Below are positions 1-30,400 of a stretch of DNA of 30,534 nt, in pieces. The stretch is from contig NW_001865059.1 in assembly GCF_000002865.3 (NCBI RefSeq), positions 424,941 through 455,474 on the forward strand, written 5' to 3'. The notes beneath the pieces are model-generated. The model made no database searches, was not told the DNA's origin, and saw only the letters and a program-made list of their open reading frames with translations. Each line of letters starts with the position of its first letter. Position 1 is the stretch's first letter. Both the position numbers and the translations under genes were made by a program. Source of the DNA: Monosiga brevicollis MX1 (taxonomy: Eukaryota > Opisthokonta > Choanoflagellata > Craspedida > Salpingoecidae).

Positions 1-3000
1 AAACCGTCCTCGACCCGAGGAACGCTTGAAAGCTTTGGTGGCTATCGTAACAGCCGTGATGCTGCACTAGCGGATTCGTTTGGTCGCGCTCGCCAACCAC
101 GTGAACGCACTGGCAGCTCCCGCTACGACGATCGCTCCGCCTTTGATGCTGATCTTTGGGATGATGTCAATGAACAGGGTGATTTTGATGCCAATGGTAA
201 TTTCCGACCCACTCGTGCCCAAGAGGCTGAGCGTGCGGCTGCCGGCGCTCCGGCACCCCCACCCGGCCTTCGGCCCTCAGCTCCCACTCTGAGCCTACAG
301 GATGTCAAGTGGGTTTACCTTGATGATCAATTCCAAAAGCAAGGACCGTTTGAAGGCGCGCGCATGCAAGACTGGTTCAACAACAACTACCTGCGCGACG
401 ACCTCATCTTGCAACGCGAGAGCGACACAATGTACACCACCCTGGGTGCTATCCGCGACATCTCCGACGCTCACAAAACGAATCCTTTTAGTCTGCCCGT
501 GCCCGACACTCTTTTCAACATGCCCGACCCCAATATCAACGAAGCCAAACGCCTTGAGCAGGAACGCCTCGAGCAACAGGAACGCCTGCAACAGGAACGT
601 CTCGAACAAGAGCGCCTCGATCGGGAGCGTCAGGCTACGGCTGCCGCCGAGGCGGCCGCCCGGGAAGAGGCTGAACGCGAACGCAAGCGCCTGGTTGAGC
701 AAGAGCAGCAGCGCCTGGTTGAGCAAGAGCGTCTCCAAAAGCAACTCGAACAGCAGCGTGCTGAGCAAGCTTGGGCGGAGCAGGAGCGTGCTCGCGTGGA
801 CCGTGAAGATCTCGAGCGTGAACGCATTCGCGCCGAGCAGGAGGCCAAGGCCAAGGCCGCTGCTGCGGCTCAGGCTGCTGCCGTCAACATTCGCCCCATG
901 GGCGGTGACTCACCCAATCTCATGCCAATGGATCCGGCCCAAGCAGTGTTGCGCGAGCGACTTAGTATTCTTGAGCAGCAGAAAACCCAGCTGGCCAGTG
1001 AACGTCAGGAGCTTCATCGCCTCGCCGGTCAATACCAGGAGCGCATGGGAATGTTGAAGAACATGTACCACCAGGTGCGCGCGCATCTGGAAGCGGCTCA
1101 GGCCCGTCAGGATGCCAATGAAATCCAGCAACTCCACGAACGCGCCACCCAAATCAGCGAGCAGGCCAATCAAATCCGCTCCCAATACACCCAACTGCAG
1201 GAGCGCGACGACAACATTCTTCAACGCTCCCGTCAACTTGAGGAAGAGGAGGCCCGTTTGCGCATGGGCACGGTGTCATTGCCCTCATCGGCAGCTCCGG
1301 CTCGCACCCCAAGCCCCGAGCCCCCAGCTTCAGCCCCAGTTGGCGTTTCTGATTCAAAGTCGACTGCTCCGGTTGGTCAGAACCCGGGCGAAGCGGCCGC
1401 TGCAGGCGAGCCGACTGAGAAGAAGGCAGGTGGCAAGTCTGGCCCCGCCAAGGGCAAGGATAAGGATGCCAAGGTGGCCGCCAAGGGTAAAGACAAGGAT
1501 GCCAAGTCCACTAAGACCAAGGCCAAGGCCAAGGTTGAGAAGGAGGAGGCTAAGAGCAGTGCTTCTGCGTCCAAGTCCAAGTTCTCGCTCTTGGATATTC
1601 AAGCCGAGCAGATGGAGGCCTCGCGCCAGGAGCAGGAGCTTCGCGCAAAGGAAGAGGCCGAGCGTCGTGCTCAGGATGCCTTGGTCAAGACTGTGTCCTC
1701 CAAAACCACGCCTACAAAGGCCCGACACTCCAGCTGGGGGGCTCCCCCCACTCCCTCTTCCGCGGCCAGCCTTCGCGACATTGAGGAGCAGGAACAGCGT
1801 GTAAGTGGTCTATCGTGATCTGCCCGAAAGCCGATGAGCGCCTCTTTTTGCACACACTCCATGTTGGATAGTGTTGCAAGTACACGTCCTTTCTCTGTGG
1901 ATAGTCGTGGGTCCGCTCACTGTGTCTTACCCTTGCTCCTTTGATGAACATAGCGTCTGGCTGAGCGCCGCAAACAAGAGGATGTCATTACGCAACAACA
2001 CATTGCGGCTCGCAATGCCGCTCTTGCCTCAGCGGCCAGCCAGCAAGCCACTTTGCCCAAAGTGTGTTGGTGGTCGTGCTTGGCCTCTGCTTCGCGTGCA
2101 CACTACTTCGTGCAACTCATGTATCACCGCTGCTTTATAGGGTGGTTGGGCCTCAAACCCTGGTTCCGCACCTTCTTCCCCTGCAGCCTTCAACACCAAG
2201 GTGAGTGGCACACGGATTATATCTATACCAGTGCTCGTGCCGATAGCTCATGATATGCGGGTTTGGGGCTTGGGTTTATGCTGTTGTTGTTGTTGTTGTT
2301 CTTTTAAACTTTTAGCCCAAGTCGTTGGCCGAAATTGCCGAGGAGGAAGAAGCTGCCCTCCGCAAGCGTCAAGCGCAAGAGCAAAAGCGTATGCAGCAGC
2401 TGCAACAGCAGCAGCAAGCGGTGGCAGCGGCCACGCCTCGCTCTCCGGCTCCAGCCAAGCTCCCTCCGTCCTCTGGATGGGCTCAAAAGGCTTCCGCTGG
2501 TGGCTCACGCGCCTGGGGAGGTGCTGCCCCTGTGGCCACAACTGCTCGTCCCGCGGCCGCTAGTGCCGCGGCACCCAAGAAGGCCGTTAAGGTGCATAAG
2601 GATGACGCAGATTCCTTCTGGATGTCTGCTGGCCAAGACTCGGCCGCAACGAGTGGCAAACCCAAGGGCTCCAAGTGCGTGTGCTTTCCTGTACTTTGCT
2701 CAACCTAACCCTCGTTGTTGATTCTTGTTTGCCGAACCGACGTGGCTCCGGCATCAGCTGTTGCGGCTCACACTTTTTTTTTTCTGCTGCCGGTCCATCT
2801 ATAGGTCGTCAGCGGCTCCTGTGGCTGCCGGCATGCAGGTTGGCACAAGTTTGGCCCAGGTCCAGCCCTCTTTTTTGGCTTGGTGCAAGAAGGAGCTTGT
2901 CAAGATTGTCAACACGGAGGTGGATCCGGAGACCTTTGTATCCTTCCTCCTAGATATCGGCTCAACATCCGAGGTGATTGATTATCTGTCGGAAATGTCG

Positions 3001-3548: not shown

Positions 3549-6500
3549 TCAAAACTCGCTTCCCTCTAATCGCAGGACAAAACGTGTCAGCTCTTCGGGA
3601 GCACCAGCACGCGGGGGTGCCACTCCCCCAACAAACACGTCATAGACACCTTCGGGATATTCAAGCTCGCCGTGGGCGTTCGCCAATTGCAGGGGGCTGA
3701 GCACAATCTCAAGCTTGATGCGCTCCTCCGCACTGGTCTTCAATTCACCTGTGGAACCCATCGGCGATCTCACAATGAGTTCTTATAACATTCATTCAGC
3801 ACGCCAAGATGGAAGGCATGAGCTTCAACAAACAAACCGGTTTTGGTAAAGGCCAGGAGCTGGCGCAAGGGGATCGAGGGATAGCGCTCTTGAAGAGCCG
3901 TGGTTTGGCGCAGACGAGCATACACTTGCACAACCTCCTTGCCGGCCCGTTTTCCGACATTGCGCACGGTCACCTCAAGCTTGAGTTGCGGCTTCAGGTT
4001 CTCGGTCAGGTTGAACGTGAGCGGTGCCATGGTAGCCGCCGCATATTCAAAGCGGGTGTAACTCAGGCCAAACCCAAAGTCGTGCAATGGGTCGTTTTGA
4101 AAGTATCTGCCAGCCAGGGAGCAACGTCCGCCAATTCAGATTGCAAGAGATCGGGCAGTCGACGGGAAAACCATCGAGTACGCAAACAAGTGAGAGCGGG
4201 GCCAGAGATATCGCCAAGTGATTGCGTACCGATACGTGCGTCCCGGGAAATCGGACATTGTCATGGACAAAATGTCAGGTAGGTCCTCGTCAGAAGGAGG
4301 TACGAGATATGGCAAGCGACCCGAAGGCGAAACCTTGCCAAATATGATATTCGAAACGGCCGTGCCTGCATGTTGGCCGCCATACCTATTGTCAACATCA
4401 CGTTTTAAGTGAGGGCAGCGGACCTGGAATTGGTGAAGCTGGCGGTTTCCAAGGAGTGCCCAGGGCCGTGCAGGGCGGTGCCTTTGCGCATATCCTACCA
4501 GGCTTCGAGCAATGCTGCAGAGCGCTCCGCTACGATGGGGCTGGCGACAGGGCCGCCATTGACATAAATGGTGATGACGCGCGTGTGAGCTGAGAAAATG
4601 CTCTCCGCCAGCTCTTTTTGAACGCCTGCCGTGCAAAGTAACCATGATCCGCCCAAGCATCAGATGAGGTTGGGCACTTTGTGGCCGACCAAGGCGCTGT
4701 CCGCATCTGAATCAAAGATATCGAGGTCAAGGCGGGAAGTACGGCGTATGATACCCGGAAGGCCGATAGATTCTCGGTCGTGGCCTTCGCATTCAGCGTT
4801 GTGGTAAGGCGTGTTGGCATGCTCCGTACACACGTGCAAGCCCAAGACCAGGAACACCACATCTGCTTGACGCGCCGCCTCAACGGCAGCCTGTGGATTT
4901 ACGAACACGCGAGTTATAAGTGGTGGGCCGCAAAATGAAGGGTTGCTACACGAACGCCATCTAAAGCATTTGCAGCACACCATCACATAGCACGGACCGG
5001 GATGCGTGATGTGTCGTTGCTTTCAATGTCGCAGCCCTCCTCAAAAGTGAACGTCACGTTGTTGGTGGCGAGCGTTGTGGACAGGCCTGCCACATGCCAG
5101 CACAAACTGAGTTTTGAACGATGTACCAAGCCAGCCGTGTTGCCAGAAAACGCCATGCCACATTGTTGCAGATTGGCACGCTCAAGGGGCACGCCCGTGT
5201 GATACCTTCGAGAATATTGACGAAACGGCATTGGGAAGAACCAGCGGGGACGTCGTTGCATGCAAAATAGTTTCCAAACAGGTCCTACACAAACCAGATA
5301 CAAGCAAGCGCCCGGACTCGTTAAAGAAGGTGAGCGGGCGAGAAGAGATAAATTACCAATCGCTTGCCTGCGTATCGTTGGCACTCGGACCGATGATTGC
5401 CACGTGCTTCAGCGAGGCCAGATCCAAGGGCAACACGTCTTGCGAGTTCTTGAGCAGCACGAGCGATTCCTACAAGGCACGTTCATGTTAATCGCAGCGC
5501 GACCTCAGGTGAGTTTGACTACAGGAACGCCGCCGCAGGCTGTATCGAAAAGGGCAGACACCACGCCCACCTCGGCCACGCGTAGATTGAGAGCCTGATG
5601 CACCGGTGAGGAGATGTTGCGCTCGTCATATGAGGAGAATGGCACGAGCTCATCCGGATCAAACTCGCCGGTGCGAAGACGAAAGGTGAAGAGCCGTTCT
5701 GCGGAGGTACGCAGGGCCTGTTCAGTGACAAGGCCATGCTCGTAGGCGTCGTGCAGCTCCAAGTAAGCCGGTCCAGAATTCAGGTCAACACCGGCGTTCA
5801 ATGCCGCTGCAGCGGCGTGAATCGTGTTGGTTGAGTAGTTTTGCTCCGAAACGAAGAAGACAATGGCGTCCGAGTCTGAAGTGAAGAATCCATCAAAGCC
5901 CCACTCATTGCGCACAATCAGATCCAGCATGGGACTGGCGCACATGGGATAGCCGTTGACACCATTGTAGCTGTGGGGCAGTGTGCGTGATGCAAGCGCC
6001 GACGTCATGGAAAGCGGTTTGCACACGTTGGTCGCACGTGCACGCAGACATGCGATCCAGCAGATGTGAACCGCCTTGTGAGTTGTAAGAATGACAAACC
6101 TGCACATCAAGCTAGTAGCGCGGCCCTCCTGCACCACGGCCTTGAAGGCAGGGAAATATGTTTGACGCAGATCCACCATGCTGATGGTTGGATCAAACGA
6201 CAAGCGTGGCGGCGTCTTGTCCAACGAGTATGCGACGAAATGCTAGCAGCCGCATGCAAAACACAGAGGCTGATGATCAGCAGATGTCGCCATGGCTCGG
6301 CCGCCTGCGAGCACTGTCAAACCTTGGGGGTGGCGCCCAAAGCGAGGTAGTCGGCGCTATCCGGCAACGTTTGTAGGCCTATGATCAGGCGGAAAGTTGC
6401 AGGCGCAATGGCCCGTTGTTGACACGACGATGAAAAAGGCATGCGATTGCCGGGAGCCACCGAGGGTGGGGCGATTTTTAAACGCATCGTGAGACATACC

Positions 6501-8347: not shown

Positions 8348-11300
8348 TTACTGCCGCAGGACCACGGGCAGGCTCGTGTTGGCGGGACGACTGTGGTAGT
8401 TGATGAGCTCGGAAAGGGTTTGGCACACAGGGCTGCCTGGAATATAGATACCTAATGGCGCCCGCAACCACAAGAACCCCCCAAATCATGACTCGTGATG
8501 GCCGAGTTGTCTCAATGGTGGCCTTCTGTATTTCACTGTGGACGCATCTTGACTGCCGACCCAATCACGTACCTTTTTTATGTTGCTGCAACACTGGAAA
8601 GTAGAGGAGCTCACGCGCCGTGCGAAGCACCAACGTCGCTACATGCACGGATGACATGCCTTGGGGTTGGGTTTGCAGATCGGGGTCGCGCACGATAAAA
8701 CTCCCCTCTGGTGAAAGTGCCAGCATGGCCTCATGATCGTGGGACGGCTGATGAATACGACACCAAGACTGGTTTTTGGCTTTGCCATCCAGCCATTTGG
8801 CCTCGGCAGAAGCCAGTGAAGGTTTCAGATCTGGTGCCGAGTACCGATGATACGATTGCAGCCGTGGGGCTAGCAACACCGGCTGCACTAATGCAGTGCC
8901 ATGGCTCGAGCGGCGCCGGCGCGCCGGCCGCGGTGCAGCCTGTCGCGGGACACGCACAACCCGTGCTGCGGGCCTGTTCTTCTTCAGTGCCAAACGCTGT
9001 GTACCCAGCTCAAAGTTGGACGCCCTTCGCGGCTCGCGTGGAGGCTCAACTCGTGCCGCGCTCTCATATAGGCTATGCGTGGAGCCAGTGTTCAAGGTGT
9101 TGAGTCGAGTCAGCGACGAACTCGTGCTGCTTGGCCCGCTGGTCAGCCCCTGCCGTGCGTGATTCAAGGTCTCGTAAGTGGATGAGGAAGGCACGCGGCC
9201 TCGAGGCTGGAGCACCACGCTGGCGAAGGGGGCCGGTGAGCTACGCGAGGACGAGTCGAAGAACGAGTCGGGCACAATGAGAGGCGAGATGAGAGGCGAA
9301 GACGGCTGGGCGTAATACTGCACAAGCTCCTCAAGACTGCGAAAGCGCAATCGCGGATCAGAGTCAAAGTGAATGCCAGGTCCATAGAGCGAGCCCGAGG
9401 GAACGACCACCAGCTCATCCCAGAAGCGGCCGAGGGCCTTGTAAGTGAGGGCAAAGCAGGCTGGATTGGACTCGCTGCGTCGAATGATAAAGGCACCGTC
9501 CGGACAGTGATCCAGCTCTTGAATGGCCGCGCTGCGTGGCTTGCCGGCCTGATACCAATACCAATCACTGACAGCCGGTATTTCCACCCGCTCGACACTG
9601 TTGGCAAAGGCGACGCTCCGTTCAATCCGCGCAGGGTCGGTTTTTGAACGCTTCTGAAAGAATGGATGGCGAGTGTTTTTGAGAATTGGCTTGATTTCGC
9701 GCACCGTGAGTGGTGCCTCGCCGGCTCCATTCGTTGTGCCGTGCAAAGAAGTGGAGCGCTGAATGTCACGCCCCCCTCCAGGCTGACCCGGGCCCACCAT
9801 GCTTGATCGACCCGCCGCTGAGGCGGTTCCGTGCATGGAGCTGCTCCGCCGGGCTGGATCAGCGCGCACGAACAACGATGGGGCTGAGACTGCCTTGATA
9901 TCCTGTAGGCGAGCCGGACGGTTGGTGGCCCGGGTAGGTAGGTCAGCCGGATCGTTGCTCTGGCTACGTGAACGGCGCCGAGCGCCGCGTCGCCGCGCCA
10001 TGGGCGAGTGTGGGGGCGTTGAAGTTGCCGTAGCCGGTGCAGAGTGCCCAGGCTCTGCGGCGAGCACGGCATTGCTGTCCGATCGTTCCCTTTCTTGGGA
10101 TGGGTGAGGCTCGAGCCGCTCGTCCGAAGGAGGCTGTAACAGGGGGCGCTGAGTTTGTTTTCGAGACACCGGCTGCTGCAAAACGTTGCTCACGCCCGGC
10201 GGCGTGAGCTGGACGGCTTCGAGACGCGCCGGCATGAGACAGTCGTTGCGGGCCAGCGGGCAGAGCAGCAGTTGTCGAGCCCGGCTTGAAGGCTGGGACA
10301 AGGTCTGGACAAGGCGTGACAAGGTCTTGTAGTGTTGGCTGCTCGCACGCACCACGCACACCGCTGGGCGGGGGCGACTACGAGAAGCGCTAAAAGCCAT
10401 GATGGATTCGGTCTCCAGCCGGCCGTGGACGACGTAGGTCAGAACAAAATACCCCAGCTGGGCGCCGTGTCGGATGAAAAAGGTGCCATCTGGGCACTTG
10501 CGCAACAAGGCCGTAGCGCGCTGCACTGCAAGGGGTGCCTCCAGCCACCAGCGAGCGCGCCAGCCCTCGGGGATCAGTGTGCTGAGGAGCTGTGGCATGT
10601 CCTGTGGAGACAGCTGCAGGGAGTGTTGGCCTCGATCCGAAAAGCCCAGATCAACAGACCCGCGCCGCGCGCGCTCATCCACCAAAGTAGTGAGATCCCC
10701 TGGCGTGTAGGTCAGCTTGACCGGCAGTTCCTCGGCGCGGGCGCGCAACTGCTCGAGGAGCGCGGCCAGCGATTCATGGTAATTCTCGTGACCGTGCAAG
10801 CAAATGCCCAGCGGGCTCATGTCAATCAGGGCAAAGCCGACTTGACCACCGTTCAGATAGACCACCTCACAGGGCTCACGTCCGGCATCGTCTGCACGAC
10901 GGGAAGTGACTTGGTGCAGGCGTGCGGCGGGGTCCTTGACCTCGAGATGCCAGGGCGGCCGCAGTCGCACAAAGTAGCAACCATCCCGTTCGTAGCGCAA
11001 GACGGCCTGACAGCTCTCCGTGTCCAGTTCGCCCACAAACCATGCTGGCGGGGAGTCGCCAGATCCGGTTTGCCGGTGAGAGGCATCGGCATCGAGCGTC
11101 AAGGAGTCGGCCAAGGCCGCGTGGTCAAAGGCACCCACTGAGAGGCACACATCTTCAGCCACGTCGGACAAGGGCAAGGGATGGTGGCGATAATATTCAA
11201 CCAAGACCGCAAGGCGACTGAAGGCGGGGCCATCTGCATAAAGACGAAGACCTTGGAATGCGACAAAGATGGGAAGCTGTTCGATGCGCTCTTCGGCCAC

Positions 11301-13066
11301 GGCCACGGTGAGAAGGAGGCGGCTACTACGGGCACCACTCGAGCCCGGTACAGTGATGCCAAAGGCACCACGCTGGGCTCGCTGGCGGACAAGATCTTGC
11401 ACCACGTGCCGCGACGCCTGATCGTTAAAGTAGTTGCCCCGAAGAGCCTCCTCGTCAATAAAGGGCACGTAAGAGGATTCGTCCGCTTGGGCCCCCTCGG
11501 CGGCCTGGAGCAGGGTTTTGGTATGCCGATTCGCTGATTGCAGACTATCAATGAGCAGATCGTGTTTGCGCTCGTGCTCTCCCAGGTTGTTGGGGTCGGT
11601 GGGCAGTGAGGCTCTGGGCCGGCTGACAAAGTCGGGATCCGTGTCCAGACGTCGACGACTAGCGCCATTCAATGGGGCTGGGGAGTGCCGGCCCACCTGT
11701 TGAGCGTTGAAGTTGTGACTGTTCTTGTTGTAGGTGGAGAGATCAGCAGTGTCAAAAGTGGTGCGTCGGGCGCGTGGGCCTTTGGAAACGGTGCTGTACA
11801 GCGCGTGCAGATCGCGGACCGATGGGGATGGGCTCGAGTCGGAGCTGCGGTTGATATCCTGATACGAATCGACGTCACCGCTTTCAACGCTGCTGTAGCG
11901 GGGACGCCGGCCACGTGATGAGTTGTCTTGAAGAACTTTGGCCTCGCCAGGGCGTTGGCTTTCTAGGCCGGGCGCCACCTCATGGATCTGGGCGTAGACC
12001 GGGTCAAAGTCCAGCATGTCACGAGAGTTTTGCGAAGGTTCCAAAGGGTTTGGTGCGTTATTGAGCAGGGGCGAACTTTGCGAGGCGTGCAGAACCGGCA
12101 CACGCTGCTGAGCGGCTACTATGGATACGCGCGGGCCGTGGTCGGGCGAGGATTGGACAACAATGCGCAACTGCTGGATGTTGTGCAGGAGCAGCCGCTG
12201 CTGGGATGGAGACTGGAAAGTGAGGGGGGGGGGGGGGGGGGGGGGAAAAAAAACCCCGAACCCCAGGAAAAATGACTTTTTGCCNNNNNNNNNNNNNNNN
12301 NNNNNNNNNNNNNNNNNNNNNNNNNNNNNNNNNNAGGAACACGGAACGCGAGGAAAAGTGACTTTGTGCATTGGCAGTGATACAAGGCACCGAGCCGGCT
12401 GGACGAGCACGTAACAAGCATGCCTTGAAAGAGCAAACCAACCTCGAGGCCCAGCCGCGTGAGGTCATCGGCGTGCAGCGCCAGCAGCCGATTACCATCG
12501 ATGCGATGCGCCTTGAAGGAGCGCTTGAGCTCGGACATGTGCACAGACTCGAGCCATCGACCCACGTCCCGCGTTGACCACTGTGATATATGTCATGAAA
12601 GGAGGGACAAGCATGCGAGTAAGGCATCGGCTTTGAGATCGTGCAAGCACGTTGACAGAGATATGGGTGCGCCGGCGCTGCCGCTTACGGTGACATGGGG
12701 TGTTTGCTATGATGGCAGACGAGATATAATTCAAGGGCCACATGGAAGCGGTCAGGGTGAGGCTGGGTTTGCATACGAGTGCCACTGGTGGGCATGCCGA
12801 GCATGAGCAAGGCTGAGGGGCACACACACCTTGTCTTGGGTGGAGATGCTTGCGGCTGAAGGCTGCGAGTAGCAAAGCGCATGCAGCCATGGAGGCGTGG
12901 TGAGATGAGCAGCAATGTGTGGTGCAATGTGCACCACAAACAACATCAAGCTAGATCATGGCATGTGTGTTACCTTGGCGGCGCCGGTGCGAGCCTCGGG
13001 ACTCTCGGGACGCGGCGGGGCAATGACGGCTGGCGAGGAATGGCGCGCTCGCCACCGCCGAAACAT
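8348..13066 (-). CDS. SAM domain plus five SH2 domains adaptor
   Basis: Exons (minus): 13066-12974, 12862-12830, 12580-12443, 12212-8573, 8451-8348; 4008 nt, 1335 residues. The start ATG at 13066 is the first in frame; the two short 5' exons rest on splice signals alone. A SAM domain (about 43-106) opens with W-S-T-R-D-V-G-R-W-L, has I-D-G-N-R-L-L-A-L, and is split by the gap-bearing intron before L-L-L-H-N-I-Q-Q-L. SH2-like units at about 348-433, 477-588, 643-740, 972-1066 and 1238-1335. The FLVR arginine is kept in units 2-5 (Y-F-V-R, F-F-I-R, F-I-I-R, F-I-V-R) but unit 1 has A-F-G-I-T. The last SH2 is completed by the final exon, which ends E-L-I-N-Y-H...L-P-V-V-L-R-Q. Tyr motifs Y-A-Q-I, Y-S-S-V, Y-S-T-V and Y-E-T-L lie in the linkers. 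No kinase or phosphatase domain is visible. Inferred role: multivalent phosphotyrosine scaffold. Confidence 0.85.
12224..12245. repeat. Poly(G) run beside the assembly gap
   Basis: Twenty-two G followed by eight A. It lies in an intron, just before a low-quality-looking stretch and the N run. Confidence 0.9.
12285..12334. other. 50-N assembly gap, probably false
   Basis: Exactly 50 N, the size often used as a placeholder. The gap lies in the intron between the two SAM exons (12442-12213). Its left flank repeats its right flank imperfectly, so little or no sequence may be missing. Confidence 0.95.
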
Positions 13067-14521
13067 GGCGGTGGACGGACAGCCCGAGAGCAGGGTGAGG
13101 ACACCTAAGATGGGCCGCTGGGGTCCTGATTTTGACAAGGAAGGAAGTGTGCGGCGAGAAGAGGGCCGGCAGCTGGCGAAAGAGCAGATCAGCCAGCTGA
13201 AGAGGTGACTGCGCGGAGGGGACCATCGACTTGTGCGGGCTGTGCGAGGCGCTGCGGATGGCGGGGTGAATGATAGGTTTGTGTGTGTGTGTGTCTGCGT
13301 GTGTCAGCAATCTGGGTGCTTGAATGATTCGGTGCAAACCGAGAGAGGAGTGCTGGGGTGGCGAATGCTCTGGCTGGTAGGGAGGATGAATGACTCAAGG
13401 GCTGAGATCCGTGCACGGCTGGAAAGATAAAAGGTATCGGGAAGGGCTGCTCGTTTGGAGCTGAATGGCAGCCCGCTCTGGGCTATATGGCTGATGGGGC
13501 ACACCAAGGTCGTGGTGGCTGCGGGAAGTGGTGAAGCTTCCTCCGAGCAAGGATGGACGGGGGGGAGGTAAGGATTGGGCACTCGCTTTCCGTTTCCATG
13601 AACGATGACCCTTGTGAGGGGGACAGTAGGCTGTGTGGCCTTGACACGGGATTGCCGCGCAACGGGCGCCGTTGGTAGGCAAGCGTTGCGTGAGTCAGGG
13701 ATTCGGGAGGGACGGAGAGGTGCGCTGGGTTGATGGGACAATACAAAAAAAGGCTTAGTTGAGCTTGGGGCAAGAACATGGGCAAAGCACGACTCCGACC
13801 ACAGTTGCTGTTCAGCAATCGTCGGGTCGCTCCACCCGAGGGAACGGCACAGCCCCCCGTTTCCTGTTTCCTGTTGTGGGGAGTGGGCTATGGTTGCGCT
13901 TGCATCTCTTGATGTGTCGTGAGTGGTTCAGGTGATGATGATGCCCGCCAGCGCCAGGCACGACCAGGCGCCACTGCATGCAGGCAAGCAAATGAAAGCC
14001 GTTGTAGACAGGTGTTGAGAAGATCTGTTGTATTTGGTTGTTGTTAACACCTGTTGTTGAATTGTCAATTCAGTTGGGGGCGCCAAACGAGTCACTCAAC
14101 AGCAAACCACGATCTTTCTAAGTTCCTTCACAAACCAAAATAGATCGTGGCATGTGTACTGCAATAAGTCGTATTTTTGCTTCATCAGCTCTTTCATCTT
14201 GCTCTTTTAAAAAATCATGACAGCAGTTTCAAACCGACAAACGTAGCGTCAACGTCGTCGCCCTCTCTCTCTGTGACGAGCGCGCGCAACCTGGACGGAG
14301 CTCATTTTTGGGCTGTCGAGTCAGGAGCGGCACTATACCGGCCATGGCAGGGGTGGAAGGGGTGGCATCATCATCATCGGTAGCAAGACCGGGCAGTGGC
14401 CATGAACGTGGCAGCTTGCGCGTCATGCACCCGGGTGACGAGATAGCCTCGTCCCTGTAAGTTGATGGATGGACGGCAGTGCTGGCATGCTTTCGATGGC
14501 AACGCAAGCGCTAGAGCGGGC
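13067..14521. other. Divergent intergenic region
   Basis: About 1.45 kb separate the SAM-SH2 gene (-) and the RUN-DysF-RH gene (+), so it probably holds both promoters. It contains a GT-rich tract near 13276-13305, a near-perfect palindrome at 14059-14071 and two 9-bp inverted repeats between 14008 and 14150. Open frames here have no family signal. Confidence 0.55.
14008..14150. repeat. Cluster of short inverted repeats
   Basis: ACAGGTGTT (14008-14016) pairs with AACACCTGT (14046-14054). GAATTG-T-CAATTC lies at 14059-14071. CCACGATCT (14107-14115) pairs with AGATCGTGG (14142-14150). All are perfect. A regulatory role is inference. Confidence 0.5.
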
Positions 14522-17500
14522 ATGCCGGCCGATGCGCGTCAGAATACCCTTGTATTGAAGCCACTTAACTCACCTGGCGCCCCTTACATGACCTTGCGTA
14601 GGGCGGGTGCTGCCGCGGTCGAGCCGCTGGATCCCCGCGACCCCTTGAACCGAATTCGCGAGCTGGTTCGTCTTGCAAGCAGCCGGAAGAAGAAAAAAAA
14701 AGTCGTCAACCCGTGGAACCTCACTCGTGCGCTCTGGTTTACCCCTGTCCTAGGAGCCGCAATATCGACAGCTGGTCATCGACCTCACGTCCTCCGTGGG
14801 AGCGGTAAGCTGCAACCGCTCACTTCACGTCTCCCATGCGGGAGATGGAAAAGAAGAATGCTCAACGCAGACCTGCACCTCCTCACGCGGGTTTCTTAAA
14901 TGACGATTCGCTTGCAGTATGCGCAAGCCATCAAGAATCCCAGTGCAGCTTTGCGCATGGATCATTTCCTGCACAATGACGGGCGCATCCAAGGCAATCT
15001 CCTCAAGATTTGTATGCATGGCATCATTTACCCCAAGCCTCTCTGGGGTGCAGGCCACAAGGCCGCCAGTAAAGCCTTTATCGCGGTTCTCAAAACTGTA
15101 CCTGCTCTTGCAGAACCTTTGTCTGAACCAAACCCATGCAAGGTCTGTGATGGGGCTGCTCTGCAACAGCCCAAGTTCACTTTGGCTCGCTCATCTCAGT
15201 CTCTCTCACCTTGTTGGAGCTTAGGCGTGTGCATCGCTGATGCTCCAAAAGTATGAAGTCCTGTCCCCGGTCTTCGCCGCCATTGAAGACTCGAGGGCCT
15301 ATTCACCCAAGGCCTTTTTAAAACAGCAAACTGCCCGTGAAATGATCCTGCACTGGCTCGTCGAAGGTACCTCTTCCCGTCCGTTTGGCTGACTGCTTGA
15401 CCTTCCCACGCCGACCTAGCAAGGGACGATCAACGGTGCTTGGCCTCACCTCCGCCCTGCTGGATGGCCCACAGTTGTTTTTTCCATGGCGGCGCACCGT
15501 CATGCCTTGGCACGAGTCACCGACCAGCCACCGACAGCCGCCCCGATTGACATGCCCGCTGTAGCTGAAATGCGCGACACGAGACTTCAGCCCCAACTCT
15601 CAGACGAACCCCTTTTCAATCGGCGTCGCGAGGACACCTTGCTGCCCGGCCAACCGCAACTACTCAAGCTCAAGAAGAAAGACAAGGGACGGAAGGCAAA
15701 GCGTTCTTCGGCCCCGCACCGCAAGCCAAAGGCTGACAGCGCCACCGCTAGTCCCTCCAGCCCAGCGCTGATTCATACCCCATTGTCTGAGCCTCAACCC
15801 GCAGCCTCAGCAACCACGCCTGCTTCAGAGGTGACCACAGTGGTGGCACCTGAGCAGACCTCATTGTTCTCATGCCCCGACAGCACAGCAATGCCCACCG
15901 ACGTGACAACCGATGAGAACTCGACAGCCGATGAGAACTTGACGGCAACCGAACCCAGTGTTGGCCATGTCGCCGCAGTCTCCGATTCAATTGTCCCGGC
16001 AGCCGCCGAGCTCCTCATGGATAACGTTCACAGTCTCAGTGCAGCACGAGATGATTCAGAGGTCGATCGAGATTCGCTGTGCCCGCCGTGCTCATTAATG
16101 TCGGCAGGACCCCCTGACAACATGGTTGCGTCTGATGCCATGGAACAAACCACACCTCGAGATGAGGCTCAGACTGTGGCTTCCGCTGAGGAGCCTGCCG
16201 AAACTTCCGAACATGCTCCCGAGGCTCTTGAAGGCCCTGAAGTACCGTACGAAGAGGAGCCCGTCGTAGCTTCCGAGGATCTTGCCAGCGCCGACACTTC
16301 TGTCCTGGAAGACAACAAAGTCGTTTCCGGTGCGCTCATTGACGAAGCTTTGACAGCCACCGAGCAAGACTCTGAAGTATTGGCACCGGAGGAGAAGTCG
16401 GATGCTCTATCAACTGCATTTGTTGCCATCACCAGCGAAGACCTGGAGCGCTTGACTGCTCGACAGCGGGAGGTCCAACAATGGGTTGAACAAAAAAACT
16501 TGGAGGTCAAGGTGAGATCGTTTACCCATTTGCCGTCCCTTTCTACGAAGGCTCGTGCACCCGACTACAACCTCACCTGCCCTGGACTCACACGCGCTTT
16601 GTTTGCTCGCTGGCTGCGCTGTTATACCCATGTTTAGACGATTGTCGTTGTCGAGAACCAGCGGCGTCGTCCTTTATGCACCGTTTACAGCTCGAAGCAT
16701 CTTGTTTTTCACGATCCGCCACCGTTTGCAACGATCCAAGGTTTATTTTGTGGTCAATCCCTTTCTGAGGTCTGTCTTGAAACAATTGTTGTTTGTTGCA
16801 CGCGACAAGAGATGCTATCGTTGAGCTTGAAGTCGTCAGCGTTGGTGTGACCCACCCTCATTTCGCGATTCGCTTGGGTGTGTGAAAGGTGGCGCCTGAC
16901 TTGCACTATGAGTGGTGCGATGACTGGAAGGTGGACTATACACATGCTGCCGTCGATGATGAGGTTGGTACGAATAGTATGGCCGTGATTATTTAGACCG
17001 ACCTCATCGCTCCCCCGGAACTGTGCAGGGCTGGCAATACAGCTACTCTTTCCGCGGGGACTTTGTCGATCAACGCACATACATGCGTTTTGTCCGCACC
17101 CGCCGCTGGAAGCGCCAGTGTGCGCGCACAGGCAAGGCTTCCTGTCCAACCGCTCCAGGCTGGCACCGAGCTTGTTCCATTTGTTTTTGTTTTGCTTTGT
17201 TTCGTTTTGTTTTTATTTGTTTTTTGTTTTCGTCACGATTATTGAACGACGGGCACTCCTTTGCTTACAAGATGCATCACCCCTTTGGGCGCCAAATTTG
17301 ACTCAAAAATAGGCGAGGGGGAGATGGCTATGCGCTCGCATAGCCTGTCTCGGACATTGTTCACCACTCACGTCGTGGAAACCTTGACTGATGCGTTCAA
17401 CTCTGTATTCCAATATCTGCTGGATCTGCCAGCCACACTCGAGAAGTACGAGCTCTATAACCCTCGCCACGGCACCTATCTTAACGGCCAGGCTGTCATG

Positions 17501-19198
17501 GATGCTGGCGTGGCTGATGCTATGACTCCGGCACATTTGGATGCGGAACTACTGGCCTTCTTACATGAAAACAACGACTCAAACTCAGAGCCAAATTCAG
17601 AGCCTTCAGGTAGGCAGCGGCGCCACGCTTCTTGCCTGTGCATGAATGAGTGATGATGACTTGTAAAATGGCGCGCCACTCCTAGTCCATCGCACCGTGT
17701 CCTTTGGCGTGGATGACCATGAGAACGAGGCAGAGGACGAGATGTTTTGCGACATTGACATCGACGTACTGTGTAAATGGGCCGACGCTCAAGTGCCCCA
17801 CCTAGCCAAGTCGCTGCTCCATGTCAAGGTATTCGGGCCCGTAGCCCTGTCGCAACCGTTGCCAGGCCGCCAGCGGTTGCTCATGGGGCGTCAATGTAAT
17901 TTGTGCAGGACGAAAAGCAGCTCGATTTTGAGGCAGTGAATCAACTGTTGGAAGCCCAAGACCGACGCTGCGCTGCCTGTCGCAACGACATTGTGGCCAC
18001 CGACAATGATTGGCAGCAATCTGCCCAAGTGTGCTTTTTTACTGGGCGCATTTATTGTCATGTGTGCCAGCGTGGCAACCGGGAGGTAAATTGGCTGACA
18101 CCAACCCAGCTTGCAATCAGACTTGCCAACGCCCCATCGTTATTTTGCCAAGCCATCCACTCACAAAGTTGCTGGCGTGCCTTGCCGATATCGTCTCCAC
18201 CTTCAAGATCATTCCGGCACGTGCGATCAATCTCTGTGACTTCACTTCGTTACCCGTGTCCGACAAAGCTGCTGCCGCTCTGGGCTTGCTCCAAATGGTT
18301 TGTGCTCTTCCTCGCTGATATGGGAAGATTCTGGGTTTATGACTCTCTTTTTTTTTTTTTTTTTTTTTGCTGAAGGAGGCTGCTGACATCATTGTGGGCT
18401 TGGTTTTCTTCACAGAAAAAGTTCTACGACGTAGATGACATCAACAAATCGCCTGGTCTGAAAGAACTCAACTCTGTGCAGGTCGGGGTCGCGTCTATTC
18501 TGCTTTGTGTCTAGTTTGTTGCTTTTAGGTTTATTTTTGGGTTTCGTTTGGAATTTTTTTGGCTTTTTGCTCAGCGTCGTCCGCATGTGGTCTTTGATGG
18601 TATCATATAGTTGCCAGAGTGGATTCTTCAACAATTGGCCCAATCCAAAGAAAAGATGCTGCCAGCCTTGGAAGAATGTGTACGCCTACGCAAACAGCTC
18701 TACGACCTTCTTGACCAGGTGAGCACGCAACTCGGAAATGAAACAGCCGACGCACTTGTTTCTCTAAGGTTTTGTAGGCGCATTTGGGTAGCTGCCCAAA
18801 AGCATGGTCTCAGTTGAGGTTGATTGGTGTGTCGATGGCTGCACCGATTCAAAACAGCTCATCTCCTACTCCCAACAGGCAAAATCAAAGGGGCAACTGA
18901 TCAAGGCGCAAGACGAACTCGCGCATGACCGTGCTTTTTATGGCCATGAGTACCTCTTTGACCTTGAAAAAAAGCCTAGTTGCTTTACTTTGAGCGATTT
19001 TGCGGAGCTTGGCAAGGCCCAGTCAGCCCAACACAGCAATCTCATGCATTTGTTGCGGAGTGCAAATGCCAAGGTAAACACAGTCTATGCAGACTCTGGC
19101 TTTTGTTTGCATGCTTGTTTTACGCTTCTCATCTTCGTTTTCAACCCTTTTGCGCTTGTTTTGAACGGCAGATCCAGGCTTGGATGCCCTCTCCGTGA
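14522..19198 (+). CDS. RUN-like, DysF and Rubicon-homology protein
   Basis: Exons: 14522-14665, 14754-14804, 14918-15142, 15225-15366, 15424-16511, 16638-16740, 16812-16840, 16889-16963, 17029-17131, 17313-17609, 17686-17828, 17909-18085, 18208-18297, 18416-18481, 18611-18718, 18879-19073, 19172-19198 (3063 nt, 1020 residues). Residues 48-187 look like a RUN domain (L-V-I-D-L-T-S-S-V; L-L-K-I-C-M-H-G). An acidic, disordered stretch runs to 550. DysFN follows (V-E-N-Q-R-R; D-P-P-P-F), then DysFC (Y-E-W-C-D-D-W-K-V-D; GWQYS; F-V-R-T-R-R-W-K-R). From 801 comes a Rubicon/PLEKHM/DEF8-type RH domain: C821/C824 and C850/C853, then IPARAINLCDF, D-V-D-D-I-N. Known role of RUN-RH proteins: late-endosome and autophagy regulation with RAB7. 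Ambiguities: start (14465, 14522 or 14588), the exon 4/5 and 9/10 junctions, and a 48-nt intron. The protein stops just before the usual distal Cys cluster. Confidence 0.75.
16841..16888 (+). other. Very short (48-nt) intron between DysF halves
   Basis: The donor is AGC|GTTGGT and the acceptor GTGAAAG|GTGGCG. Without it the frame meets TGA at 16881-16883. With it, the exon ending V-E-L-E-V-V-S joins V-A-P-D-L-H-Y-E-W in phase 0. Confidence 0.5.
18348..18368 (+). repeat. Poly(T) run in an intron
   Basis: Twenty-one T about 45 nt before the acceptor of exon 14 of the RUN-DysF-RH gene; it may serve as an extended pyrimidine tract. Confidence 0.8.
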
Positions 19199-19309: not shown

Positions 19310-21628
19310 TCATGTGTTTCCAGGCCTCAAAGCCTGGGCCTTCAGCTTGATGACGCCTGATTTGGCAATATGTTTCACTGATAGCGTCGTCGCGTCCATA
19401 CCCAGGGCTTTGGCATCTAGCACTAGGGGGCTGCGCGTGCTCAAAGTTCCTGGTGCTTGAGATTTGACGGTTATAGATATATACTGCTCGTTGTCCACAT
19501 GAACCTCAACGGGCAAACCATCGGTGTCCACGCGCACAATGAGGGCGTCGTCGCTTTTTTGCACGCGATGGGACCAGGCTGTCGGAGTGTGCCCCGGACT
19601 GTCCGATGCGCTTTCGATAGGGCTGCCAACCGGGGCGGACACGGGTGTGGCTTCGTCGCGGCCGCTGTCAGACGTCATACCCAAATCTGCGGTGGTGGAT
19701 GCTGCTGCCGTAGTCGCGGCAGTCATGGCTGGCTTATTATGAGACGCGCCGCCTGTGGCAGCGGCAGCAATGACGTCACTGGCCATTGGCTCGTCTCTTG
19801 GGCTGTTCACCTGATTTTTCGCAGGAACCATCTGGGCCTGTGCCTGAGTGGCCTCGAACTTTTCAATCTCACGTCGAATTCGCTCTTCTTCAATCTGTTC
19901 TCACAACCATCATAAAAGCAGGCATTATTTCAAGAAAGTGAGGCCCAGGCCGTCTGTTGTATGAATACGCGCGCACTGGCCCATGCGATCGTTTGAGGGT
20001 AGGGCAAGAAGCCATGGGAGCGGGAATGACGGCTTGATTGGCGATGGATTTGTGGGACACGACATATGGTACCTGTTGATCCAACTCAAACGCTGTGCCG
20101 GCCGAAGCTTCGGCCTCTGCGCGTTCATCAGCATCATAGAACCAATGCGTGGCAGCAAACCTTGGCACGTTTGTTGGTAGCACCTCATGAGGTACGCGGC
20201 GGTCCGAAAAAAATATGACCATGGTGTTGGCTCGAGGAGGGATGGTGACGGCCTGCTCCACACTACCAGAGGGAGTGGGAGATGCCGAGGCTTCCGTCTC
20301 ATCGTCACTATCTGCGGGGGCTGCAGCGTGTTGATGTTCGTCCGGGGTCACAAAGAGGCGCACTTCACCACCATCCCCGGGTTGCCACTCTTCGTTGAGA
20401 TAAAAGAGGACGGTAAGCTTGCGGCCATTACGGTGCGGGTTGTCGCAGTGGCGAATGTAGCGGGTGCTGTTGCCGGGATAGCAAGTAATCATGGCTTCGG
20501 AACGCGACTCGATTCGCTGAAGCTCGGGTACGAACGCGGCAATGAGCTGCACGAGCGTGTTCATGCGACTGGTGAAGGCGCGGAGACCGGATCCCTGCCA
20601 GCAGCGTGGTTGACTACGGTCGGCTTGAGCGCTTTCTGTTGTGGGCGTGGGATCGGAAGCCGTCTCTTCTGTGATGGCGAGTTCAGCGCGCCCAGAACTT
20701 GAATCGTGACAGGGATCCTGATTGAACCATCCAACCTAAAAGCGTGCCGCAGTTCAAGCGAAGGAAGCAGGGGCAATTAGTCCTGAGCATTCCTTCGGGC
20801 CATGATGGCATGCCACACGGCAGTGCGTCACGTGTGTGGTAGAATTTTTGTCGGCTTGCAGGGCTAATCACAAACCTGATCACCGCGAACATGCCCGAGG
20901 ACATATTTGGTGTTTGCACCCGCTCGTCCACCTGCCAGCTGCCCCGGCTTGAGGTTGCCGTCACGGTGAGCAGATTTGACCTGCGGCCACGTGACCGAGG
21001 GAGCGTTAATGCGAATGAGCACCAGATGTACACCAGGGAAAAGGAAAGTGCTCAACCGACTGCACACCTCGTGAATGAATTGGCGCAGCACATGATCATC
21101 AAGGACGCGGTCAACAACAACGTAGTGCTGGCGTTGGAGCGTCAGCGCTAGGCCGTGGGCGTATTCCGCTACGTCAGGAGCTTCTGTCAGGAGCTGGGAG
21201 ACGTGGGCGTAGCGAGGACTAGTCGGCAACAAAGGCAAAATTTAAAAAAAAAAAAAAAAAAGTTGTTTGTGTGGTGGATGGTGCGTGTGCCAACTAGCGG
21301 GATGAGGGGCCGGGAGCTCAGTGGGGGAAGTGCGCACACACTTGGTACTGTCCAAGGCCAGGTCGTGTTGCCAGTGGGGCTGCTGCTTTGCTGCAGCGGC
21401 AGCAGCGGCAGCAGAGGAGGCCACGGGTGCTGGCTGAGTGCCTTGAAAGGCTTGTGCAATTTCAGTCAGCGCTGCAGCCATTTCTTCAACACAGCCCAGT
21501 TGTTGCCCCAGCTCCACGCACTGCAAGCCCCGACGCGAGCCAATTCGCACCGGGGGTGAGCACGCGATAGGTTTTCCATCGTGTTGTCTGGGAGCCCTAA
21601 TCGAGAGGATTTTTGCAGCCATGGACAT
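19310..21628 (-). CDS. EGLN: EGLN/PHD-type prolyl 4-hydroxylase with Hsp20/CS-like tail
   Basis: Exons (minus): 21628-21342, 21218-21068, 20980-20876, 20735-20073, 19894-19310; 1791 nt, 596 residues. Start is the first of two close ATGs (21628, 21622). The N-terminus is Ala/Gln-rich; no MYND finger is seen. The catalytic core (about 100-390) follows EGLN closely: Y-V-V-V-D near the start, D-G-N-L-K-P-G-Q-L, V-R-G-D, M-I-T-C-Y-P-G-N, the iron ligands H277 and D279 in R-H-C-D-N-P, H364 in D-R-R-V-P-H-E-V, and the 2-oxoglutarate-binding R373. An acidic insert (about 312-342) sits in the core. Exon 5 adds a short charged helix, an Ala/Thr-rich linker and a beta-rich region (517-590) resembling Hsp20 or CS domains. 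Family reaction: O2- and 2-oxoglutarate-dependent 4-hydroxylation of proline in cytosolic proteins (HIF-alpha in animals, Skp1 in protists). The substrate here is unknown; Skp1 is a reasonable guess. Confidence 0.88.
21244..21261. repeat. Poly(A) run (poly-T in the minus-strand transcript)
   Basis: Eighteen A on the plus strand inside intron 1 of the prolyl hydroxylase gene. Read on the minus strand it is a T tract about 25 nt before the acceptor. Confidence 0.8.
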
Positions 21629-27487: not shown

Positions 27488-30400
27488 CTAGGCAAAGCCA
27501 AGGTCAGCGCAAGTGCACTTGTGTGTTACCGAATCGCAGGCGTTGTCGAGGGCAATGTAGCAGTCAGTAACACCAGCAGCATTGACCAAGCCATCCACGT
27601 GGGCCAATTGGCTGTTGCCAAAGATGTACACAGTATTAAGTTGAGTCAGCGAAGAGAGTGCATCAATCTCGGTCAAAAGTGGGTTGTTGGTGATGAGCAA
27701 AAAGTCAACGCTGGTGAGGCCTTCTGTGCCAGCAAAGGTCGTCAATGCATTGTTGGACTGGACCGCCAGCTGGCCCCCGACAGAGGTAAGCCCACCCAGG
27801 CCGGTCAAACTCGTCAACATGGCATTGCTTTGAACTGTCATGTCCCCGCCGACGCTGGAGAGCAGGTCCAGACCGCTCAGATTCTTCAGAACAGAGTTGC
27901 CGCGGATGGTAAGTCCAAAGTCAACAGTTGTTAAAACGTCAGGCCCGTCCATCGTCTCCAAGTTGGTGCTGCCGCGAATCTCGAGCGATTGAACTTGACC
28001 CACGGTCGTCATGGAGGCAAGAGAAGACTCATCCACATCACAGGTATAGCCTGAGTAGCCGTTGGAAAAGGCAACGAAACCATCAATGTGGTAACGGCCG
28101 GCAATGGTCGCAGCAGCTTCGCTGAGTTGTGTGCTAGACCGACACAGGACATCACCGGTGTACGTCGGGTTGAGAGTGGTGGTTGAGGTGGTCGACGTGC
28201 TGGTCGTTGAGGTCGTCGAGGTTGTTGAGGTCGTTGAGGTCGTTGAAGTGCTCGTGGTAAACTCTGCAAGCCCAATGCTACCGCAGGTACATCCAACGCA
28301 GGCAGGATTGTTGGCGATCATGCAAGTTCCGGTAATGACCACACCGTTGAGCGCGGCAATTGACTCAAGATTCTGGTTATTGGTGATCTTCAAGTCGCCA
28401 TCAATGACCAAACGAGTTGCATCCAAGCCACTCAGATTGGTAAGCCCAGCCATGTCGGAGATGGTGAGAGTTTGAGTGCTGCTGAGCGCTGCGAGGGGCT
28501 CAAGACTGGTGATGCTCGGCTGGCCGTTGAGAGTCATGTAGCTCCCGACGTGCTTCAAATCTTGGAAGTACGAAAACACTGTGTCGGTCATTTCGCAGCC
28601 TGAAACAAGGCGCACGTAGCTGTCAATCACCTCAACATTCGTAACCAGGTACTGCACGGCGGGATGAGATGCAGGGTCGTTGCAAAATACTGGACCAGCG
28701 CGGGCCAACAGACTCGTAGTAGTTGTGCTCGTTGTCGTGGTGGAAGTGGTGCTCGTGGATGTGGTCGTGGTGACGGTTGTGGTGGTGGTAGGATCGGACA
28801 AGCCGATGCTGGCGCAGTCACAAGAGCCAACACAAGAAGGAAGAGTAGCAGGATCAATCAAGCATTGACCGTTAACTGTGATACCGTTCAAAGCCGCAAG
28901 AGAAGTCAACAATGGAAGGCCACTGATAGTCAAATCTCCAGTCACAGTGAGCATACTTCCGTTGAAGCCGTCCAGTGTCTCAAGGCTGTTCATTGACTCG
29001 ATGCTGAATGAACCAGCAATGTACTCAAGGCTTTCAAAGCCGCTGAAGTTTGACACAAGGTGGTTACGATCAAAGCTAACGTCACCCAGGACATCTCGAA
29101 GGTCGTGGAACTCGGCCAGAAAGCTTGGTGTAGCCTTGCAACCAGAAGTGATTGACAAAAAGCCATCCAGGATGTACATGCCGGGAATAACAGATCGGAG
29201 TGCATCTTGATTGGTGGGGTGGTAACAAATGATGTCCAGGTCAACGCGGGTGGACGTTCGGCTGGTAGACGATGTCGAGGAAGTCGAGGAGGTCGAGGAG
29301 GTCGAGGAGGTTGATGAGGTTGATGAGGTCGAGGAGGTCGAGGAGGTCGACGTAAACGTAGTAGTGGTGGGCTCAGCAGTGGTCGTGGTGGGCTCAGCAG
29401 TGGTAGTGGTGGTGGGCTCAGCAGTAGTGGTAGTGGTGGTAGGCTCAGCAGTAGTGGTGGTGGTAGGCTCAGCAGTAGTAGTGGTGGGCTCAGCAGTGGT
29501 GGTCGTGGTGGGCGCCACAGTAGTAGTGGTAGGCTCAGCAGTAGTAGTGGTAGTGGGCGCCACAGTAGTAGTGGTGGGCTCAGCAGTAGTGGTCGTGGTG
29601 GGCGCCACAGTAGTAGTGGTAGGCTCAGCAGTGGTGGTCGTGGTGGGCTCAGCAGTGGTGGTCGTGGGCTCAGCAGTGGTAGTGGTGGTGGGCTCAGCAG
29701 TAGTGGTAGTGGTGGTAGGCTCAGCAGTAGTGGTGGTGGTAGGCTCAGCAGTGGTGGTGGTGGTGGGCTCAGCAGTGGTGGTCGTGGTGGGCGCCACAGT
29801 AGTAGTGGTAGGCTCAGCAGTAGTGTGGTAGTGGGCGCACAGTAGTAGTGGTGCTCAGCAGTGGTGGTCGTGGTGGGCGCCACAGTAGTAGTGGTGGGCT
29901 CAGCAGTAGTGGTCGTGGGCTCAGCAGTCGTAGTGGTGGTGGGCGCCACAGTAGTAGTGGTGGGCTCAGCAGTAGTGGTGGTGGGCTCAGCAGTGGTGGT
30001 CGTGGTGGGCGCCACAGTAGTAGTGGTGGGCTCAGCAGTAGTGGTGGTGGGCTCAGCAGTCGTGGTGGTGGTGGGCTCAGCAGTAGTGGTCGTGGTGGGC
30101 TCAGCAGTAGTAGTGGTGGTGGGCGCCACAGTAGTAGTGGTAGGCTCAGCAGTGGTGGTCGTGGTGGGCTCAGCAGTGGTGGTCGTGGGCTCAGCAGTGG
30201 TAGTCGTGGTGGGCGCCACAGTAGTAGTGGTAGGCTCAGCAGTGGTGGTGGTGGTAGGCTCAGCAGTGGTGGTGGTGGTAGGCTCAGCAGTGGTGGTCGT
30301 GGTGGGCTCAGCAGTGGTGGTCGTGGTGGGCGCCACAGTAGTAGTGGTGGGCTCAGCAGTAGTAGTGGTAGGCTCAGCAGTGGTGGTCGTAGTGGGCTCA

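Follow-up and report, generated by a model that had tools for sequence, protein, structure and literature searches.

A Monosiga brevicollis gene model joining a DysF domain to a truncated Rubicon-homology domain, a candidate membrane-docking adaptor

We analyzed a 30,534-nucleotide stretch of the Monosiga brevicollis MX1 genome (contig NW_001865059.1; C36:424941-455474 in our contig numbering), referred to throughout as the window, and focused on a plus-strand gene model at 14344-19198 whose predicted product combines a DysF domain with a truncated Rubicon-homology (RH) domain. A 43-residue stretch of the UNC18 gene of this genome is identical (43 of 43) to the M. brevicollis chain A of PDB 2xhe, in agreement with this source. 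The model was assembled manually, guided by splice sites and open frames, and comprises 17 exons encoding 1031 amino acids (aa). A preliminary description of this DNA had drawn 17 exons from 14754 onwards; the splice-consistent layout held up, with 15 exons from that position and two tentative ones upstream (14344-14456 and 14602-14665), which supply the start codon and a low-complexity N terminus with a closing frame. Exons 3-5 and the beginning of exon 6 (14754..15533) encode an N-terminal region not assigned to a family, with no Pfam, NCBIfam or PDB match. The remainder of exon 6 (15534..16511) lies in a 405-codon open frame, with the model frame giving the top coding score, and encodes a long, low-complexity linker rich in acidic residues, Pro, Thr and Ser. 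Exons 7-9 encode the DysF domain, and the linker between DysF and RH is contributed by exons 10-11 (17313..17828), for which the model frame is the best coding frame and no Pfam match exceeded its cut-off. Exons 12-15 carry the RH region, and exons 16-17 (18879..19198) the C terminus and stop codon. Only two Pfam families scored above cut-off in the whole model, RH_dom and Pex24p; rows for Endonuclease_7, Ribosomal_S14, tRNA_bind_3, Cadherin_3 and AbiEi_4 in the model or its pieces were weak or at chance level, all under their cut-offs, and were set aside.

The DysF domain (exons at 16638-16769, 16889-16963 and 17029-17131; aa 562-664) was recognized by the Pex24p profile (PF06398) with 28.4 bits against a cut-off of 26.8, a modest margin, over aa 534-659, and the isolated region scored 30.5 bits. 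The match covered positions 205-358 of the 358-position profile, which correspond to its DysF end, and left the N-terminal part unmatched. By sequence, the closest solved chain was the N-terminal DysF domain of TECPR1 (8p5p; E 2.1e-5; 33% identity across the aligned region), and the other nine of the ten PDB rows had E values of 0.096 (dysferlin, the first of them) or worse, with ferlins mixed among unrelated proteins; the rows for GID4 and adenylate kinase are at chance level. The DysF domain previously placed at 16638-17131 is therefore borne out by a curated profile above its cut-off and by TECPR1 DysF as the nearest chain.

To compare the domain with TECPR1, we placed TECPR1 residues on the window protein through the sequence alignment to the 8p5p chain, using the sphingomyelin site and the stacked Trp/Arg scaffold mapped in the portion of Boyle et al. 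2023 (PMC10476172) that we consulted. Six of the seven scaffold residues that could be mapped are kept (W118, W122, W138, R159, R161 and R165), W116 is replaced by Tyr, and the eighth position, R167, lies beyond the end of the alignment. At the sphingomyelin site, by comparison, one residue of twelve is identical. The 11 changed positions include the mild substitutions K152 to Arg, L88 to Val, L89 to Phe and W154 to Tyr, as well as W77, which is Arg in the window protein. The model also differs from TECPR1 in that tectonin repeats were not matched in it (Pfam, up to E 10); one tectonin match was found elsewhere in the genome, at C54:1196127, with no DysF domain seen by eye within its 3 kb.

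The tip of the predicted DysF domain is rich in arginines and aromatic residues (R570-R572, Y636, Y648 and F651). According to the sections of PMC12101078 consulted, the DysF domain of Pex30 binds phosphatidic acid through basic and aromatic tip residues, and TECPR1 employs the same region, with similar residues, for sphingomyelin. Judged by residue type, the window domain presents the same kind of surface as Pex30; because this region also serves sphingomyelin in TECPR1, the tip does not fix which lipid the window protein would bind. A further likeness to the Pex30/Pex23 family and Spo73 lies in the shared Pfam family PF06398, through the C-terminal (DysF) part of the profile, whereas the N-terminal Pex24p part, which is transmembrane in the peroxins, has no counterpart in the match.

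The RH region (17909..18718) was matched by RH_dom (PF13901) with 43.7 bits against a cut-off of 28.1 over aa 852-948 (18029-18688), corresponding to profile positions 2-93 of 206. Its closest solved chain by sequence was Rubicon (6wcw; E 9.2e-7), and the second of the two PDB rows, ING3 at E 0.31, is at chance level. Scores of this size make chance an unreasonable explanation for the DysF match as well as for the RH match. A tblastn search of the whole model against its own genome (39.5 Mb, 57 contigs) returned the model itself and one RH locus on another contig (L031, C54:1612500-1621500), here called the C54 paralogue, which has a full RH domain (profile 2-205, 203.9 bits). The likeness to this paralogue spans aa 822-973 (26% identity, E 1.3e-4). 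The five cysteines of the first cluster (C832, C835, C853, C861 and C864) occupy columns that are invariant among the window protein, Rubicon and the C54 paralogue, and the region further resembles Rubicon RH in its IPAR-like and DF...VS motifs.

The domain is, however, incomplete. Rubicon carries a C-terminal module of 11 cysteines between residues 881 and 932, which includes K887, T911 and K916, and this module is lacking in the window protein. No exon for such a module was found on the plus strand between 18086 and 21000, where five CxxC motifs are scattered over three frames and none are clustered. When aa 923-1031 were aligned with the C54 paralogue, only 6 of 500 shuffled sequences scored as high, whereas the same segment compared with Rubicon was at shuffle level (211 of 500 as high); the RH likeness to the paralogue thus continues into exons 16-17 until about aa 973, with no cysteine module beyond. 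The window protein therefore has a truncated RH domain, in which the first cysteine cluster is present and the C-terminal module is gone. Accordingly, the RH domain described earlier at 17909-19073 stands as far as the profile match and first cluster are concerned, and not as a complete domain.

The C54 paralogue differs from the window gene in its surroundings, with a RUN match about 3.4 kb upstream of its full RH domain and no DysF match by tblastn; a single gene there is a candidate. Ahead of its RH domain, the frame contains a stretch that we take to be C1-like. Other searches for relatives gave little. The Pex24p profile returned one row at E 4.1 in the genome and missed the window DysF domain itself, whose coding sequence is divided among three exons; this search is therefore no proof that other DysF domains are absent. 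FerI, a ferlin-family domain, had no match in the genome, and neither did its control. The DysF region had no relative in viral or prokaryotic contig collections, the RH region none in the viral collection, and the N-terminal region none in the prokaryotic collection. Further RH loci in the genome, L032 (C53) and L033 (C52), were matched in pieces, and RH rows at C26 and C25 fell under the cut-off, the one at C25 resembling a RING finger by eye.

A RUN-like region had been proposed ahead of the DysF domain, and our searches did not bear this out. Neither aa 1-247 nor two sub-stretches of it matched RUN or any other Pfam family up to E 10; aa 1-247 had no NCBIfam match up to E 1, and approximately aa 39-235 had no PDB match up to E 10. 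As a positive control, the RUN model was applied to the genome at large, where seven of its ten rows passed the cut-off, one of them the match upstream of the C54 RH domain and three only with in-frame neighbours, and a divergent RUN domain from contig C31 reached 22.0 bits (cut-off 22) in the same kind of scan. Aligned directly with this C31 RUN domain, the N-terminal region did no better than shuffled sequences, of which 222 of 500 in local and 288 of 500 in semi-global alignment reached its score. The region contains an HG and a W-bearing stretch that, by eye, we take to be RUN-like, and the profile comparison leaves room for a diverged RUN fold, which the region may have.

Our preferred reading, to which we assign a probability of roughly 0.5, is that the locus holds one gene for a membrane-docking adaptor with a DysF domain and a truncated RH domain. 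In its favour are the two domains scoring above cut-off in one model, TECPR1 and Rubicon as their nearest chains, the retained DysF scaffold and first RH cysteine cluster, and the phosphatidic acid binding of the Pex30 tip. We infer a single transcript and a soluble protein roughly 1031 residues long. The Arg/aromatic tip of its DysF domain would attach it to a membrane, the lipid probably being anionic rather than sphingomyelin. The acidic linker would connect DysF to the truncated RH domain, and the latter, reduced to its first cysteine cluster and helical part, would interact with a late endosomal protein, which may be a Rab7-class GTPase or perhaps something else. A more specific proposal, possible but tentative, is that a true fusion of the two domains would act as a coincidence detector, with DysF sensing the lipid state of a membrane and the minimal RH domain recognizing an endolysosomal partner. 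The preliminary description had inferred a scaffold for damaged-membrane handling and autophagy; the presence of both domain matches in one model is in keeping with this, while the part about damaged membranes loses weight, since the window protein does not conserve the sphingomyelin site of TECPR1.

Several observations weigh against the adaptor reading, one group of which concerns the partner. In the portions consulted, PMC8102471 reports that Rubicon K887, N821, M822 and T825 contact Rab7 switch II, and PMC11090050 that T911 and K916, together with N821, match the positions of a phospho-RAB7A triad in Pacer. We fitted these six Rubicon residues onto the PDB fragment, and a single numbering offset accommodates them. 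K887, T911 and K916 fall in the module absent from the window protein, and N821, M822 and T825 face E936, K937 and C945, none of the three being identical, in a part of the alignment that is of low confidence. With some of the known contact surface lost or altered, Rab7 binding by the window RH domain should not be assumed, and the partner is perhaps not of the Rab7 class. The other group concerns the gene itself. Intron 9 (17132..17312), the junction on which a single gene depends, was modelled as GC-AG and requires either that pair or a GT donor, of which the several available look weak; an ATG in exon 10, at 17324, with G at -3 and +4, could begin a separate gene; and the model frame was the top of the three forward frames in 13 of the 17 exons, missing exons 3, 7, 9 and 17, of which 7 and 9 encode DysF. 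In exons 1, 7 and 17, moreover, a reverse frame scored higher than the model frame, and in exon 13 the two were level. These coding scores were trained on 52 open frames, possibly including shadow frames, and that of exon 17 was computed with its stop codon.

The same junction bears on whether two adjacent same-strand genes lie here, one ending in DysF and the other, starting at or after 17324, encoding a small RH-type protein. The exon 9 frame runs open to a stop at 17299-17301, and none of the other 15 introns is as long as intron 9 (181 bp). The closing phases that had been cited for a single gene are weak evidence, because 35 GT/GC...AG pairs, 14 of them with GT, join exons 9 and 10 in frame over the range of donors and acceptors considered; what remains of that claim is a splice-consistent model that carries both domains. 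Downstream, a convergent minus-strand frame (19900 down to a stop at 19310) ends about 110 bp from the model stop, so tight gene packing occurs here. Yet a split at the first exon 10 ATG would leave 22 bp between 17301 and 17324, more with a later ATG, to accommodate a 3' end, a promoter and a 5' leader. The gap is also intron-like in composition, with 39% T in intron 9, similar to introns 13, 14 and 16 of the same model (41-48%). It contains no AATAAA or ATTAAA, a weak argument since none follows soon after 19198 either. We consider two genes unlikely, though far from negligible, and judge one gene spanning DysF and RH to be the likelier arrangement, with fair confidence.

Within a single gene, the balance of function could lie elsewhere than in an adaptor. 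The protein might resemble Pex30 and Spo73 and act mainly through DysF in membrane contact or lipid homeostasis, its RH domain being a worn remnant or a plain zinc fold without Rab binding, a reading that we regard as doubtful. The matched Pfam family, the lost sphingomyelin site (1/12) and the missing RH module all agree with it. Conversely, the nearest PDB chain is TECPR1 and no peroxin, which is telling only if the PDB includes a peroxin DysF domain; M. brevicollis is reported, in the part of PMC8172628 consulted, to lack most PEX proteins; and the intact first cysteine cluster argues that the RH domain has not simply decayed. The Rubicon/PLEKHM1-type RUN+RH regulator of the preliminary description, supposed to have acquired DysF, is very improbable. 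Rubicon is indeed the best match of the RH domain, and the RUN-like stretch noted above would fit, but RUN went undetected by a model that scores at other loci of the genome, the likeness to the C31 RUN domain was no better than shuffles, the RH domain lacks the part holding Rubicon K887, T911 and K916, and the C54 locus already offers RUN upstream of a full RH domain.

To our knowledge, no protein carries both DysF and RH, and a search of the published literature in a limited collection likewise found none, in line with the preliminary description. In the portions consulted, the literature examined assigns DysF and RH to separate proteins within the endolysosomal and autophagy systems. As read from the sequence, two known domains are newly combined here, in a single species and with RH cut short, and the combination may exist unannotated in other eukaryotes. 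If true, the fusion would bring together two modules of autophagy and membrane repair in a close animal relative, and would suggest that sensing of membrane state and regulation of the RH type are functionally connected there. A working RH unit would then consist of the first cysteine cluster plus helices, and the truncated domain offers a natural test of which RH part binds which partner.

Elsewhere in the window, the convergent neighbour at 19893-20735 (minus strand) matched 2OG-Fe(II) oxygenase (PF13640, 73.3 bits) and presumably resembles a prolyl hydroxylase. Upstream of the model, a 605-codon open frame at 1-1815 (plus strand) contains a GYF domain (49.8 bits), 5508-6242 (minus strand) matched the N-terminal domain of glycosyl hydrolase family 3 (33.3 bits), and a 1299-codon open frame at 8568-12464 (minus strand) contains an SH2 domain (53.9 bits). 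At 27491-29854 (minus strand), a Receptor L domain (38.4 bits) is accompanied by a weak leucine-rich row under its cut-off. Finally, T-rich tracts on the coding strand lie within introns 9, 13, 14 and 16 of the model (39-48% T), and long T runs occur at locus L042 too.

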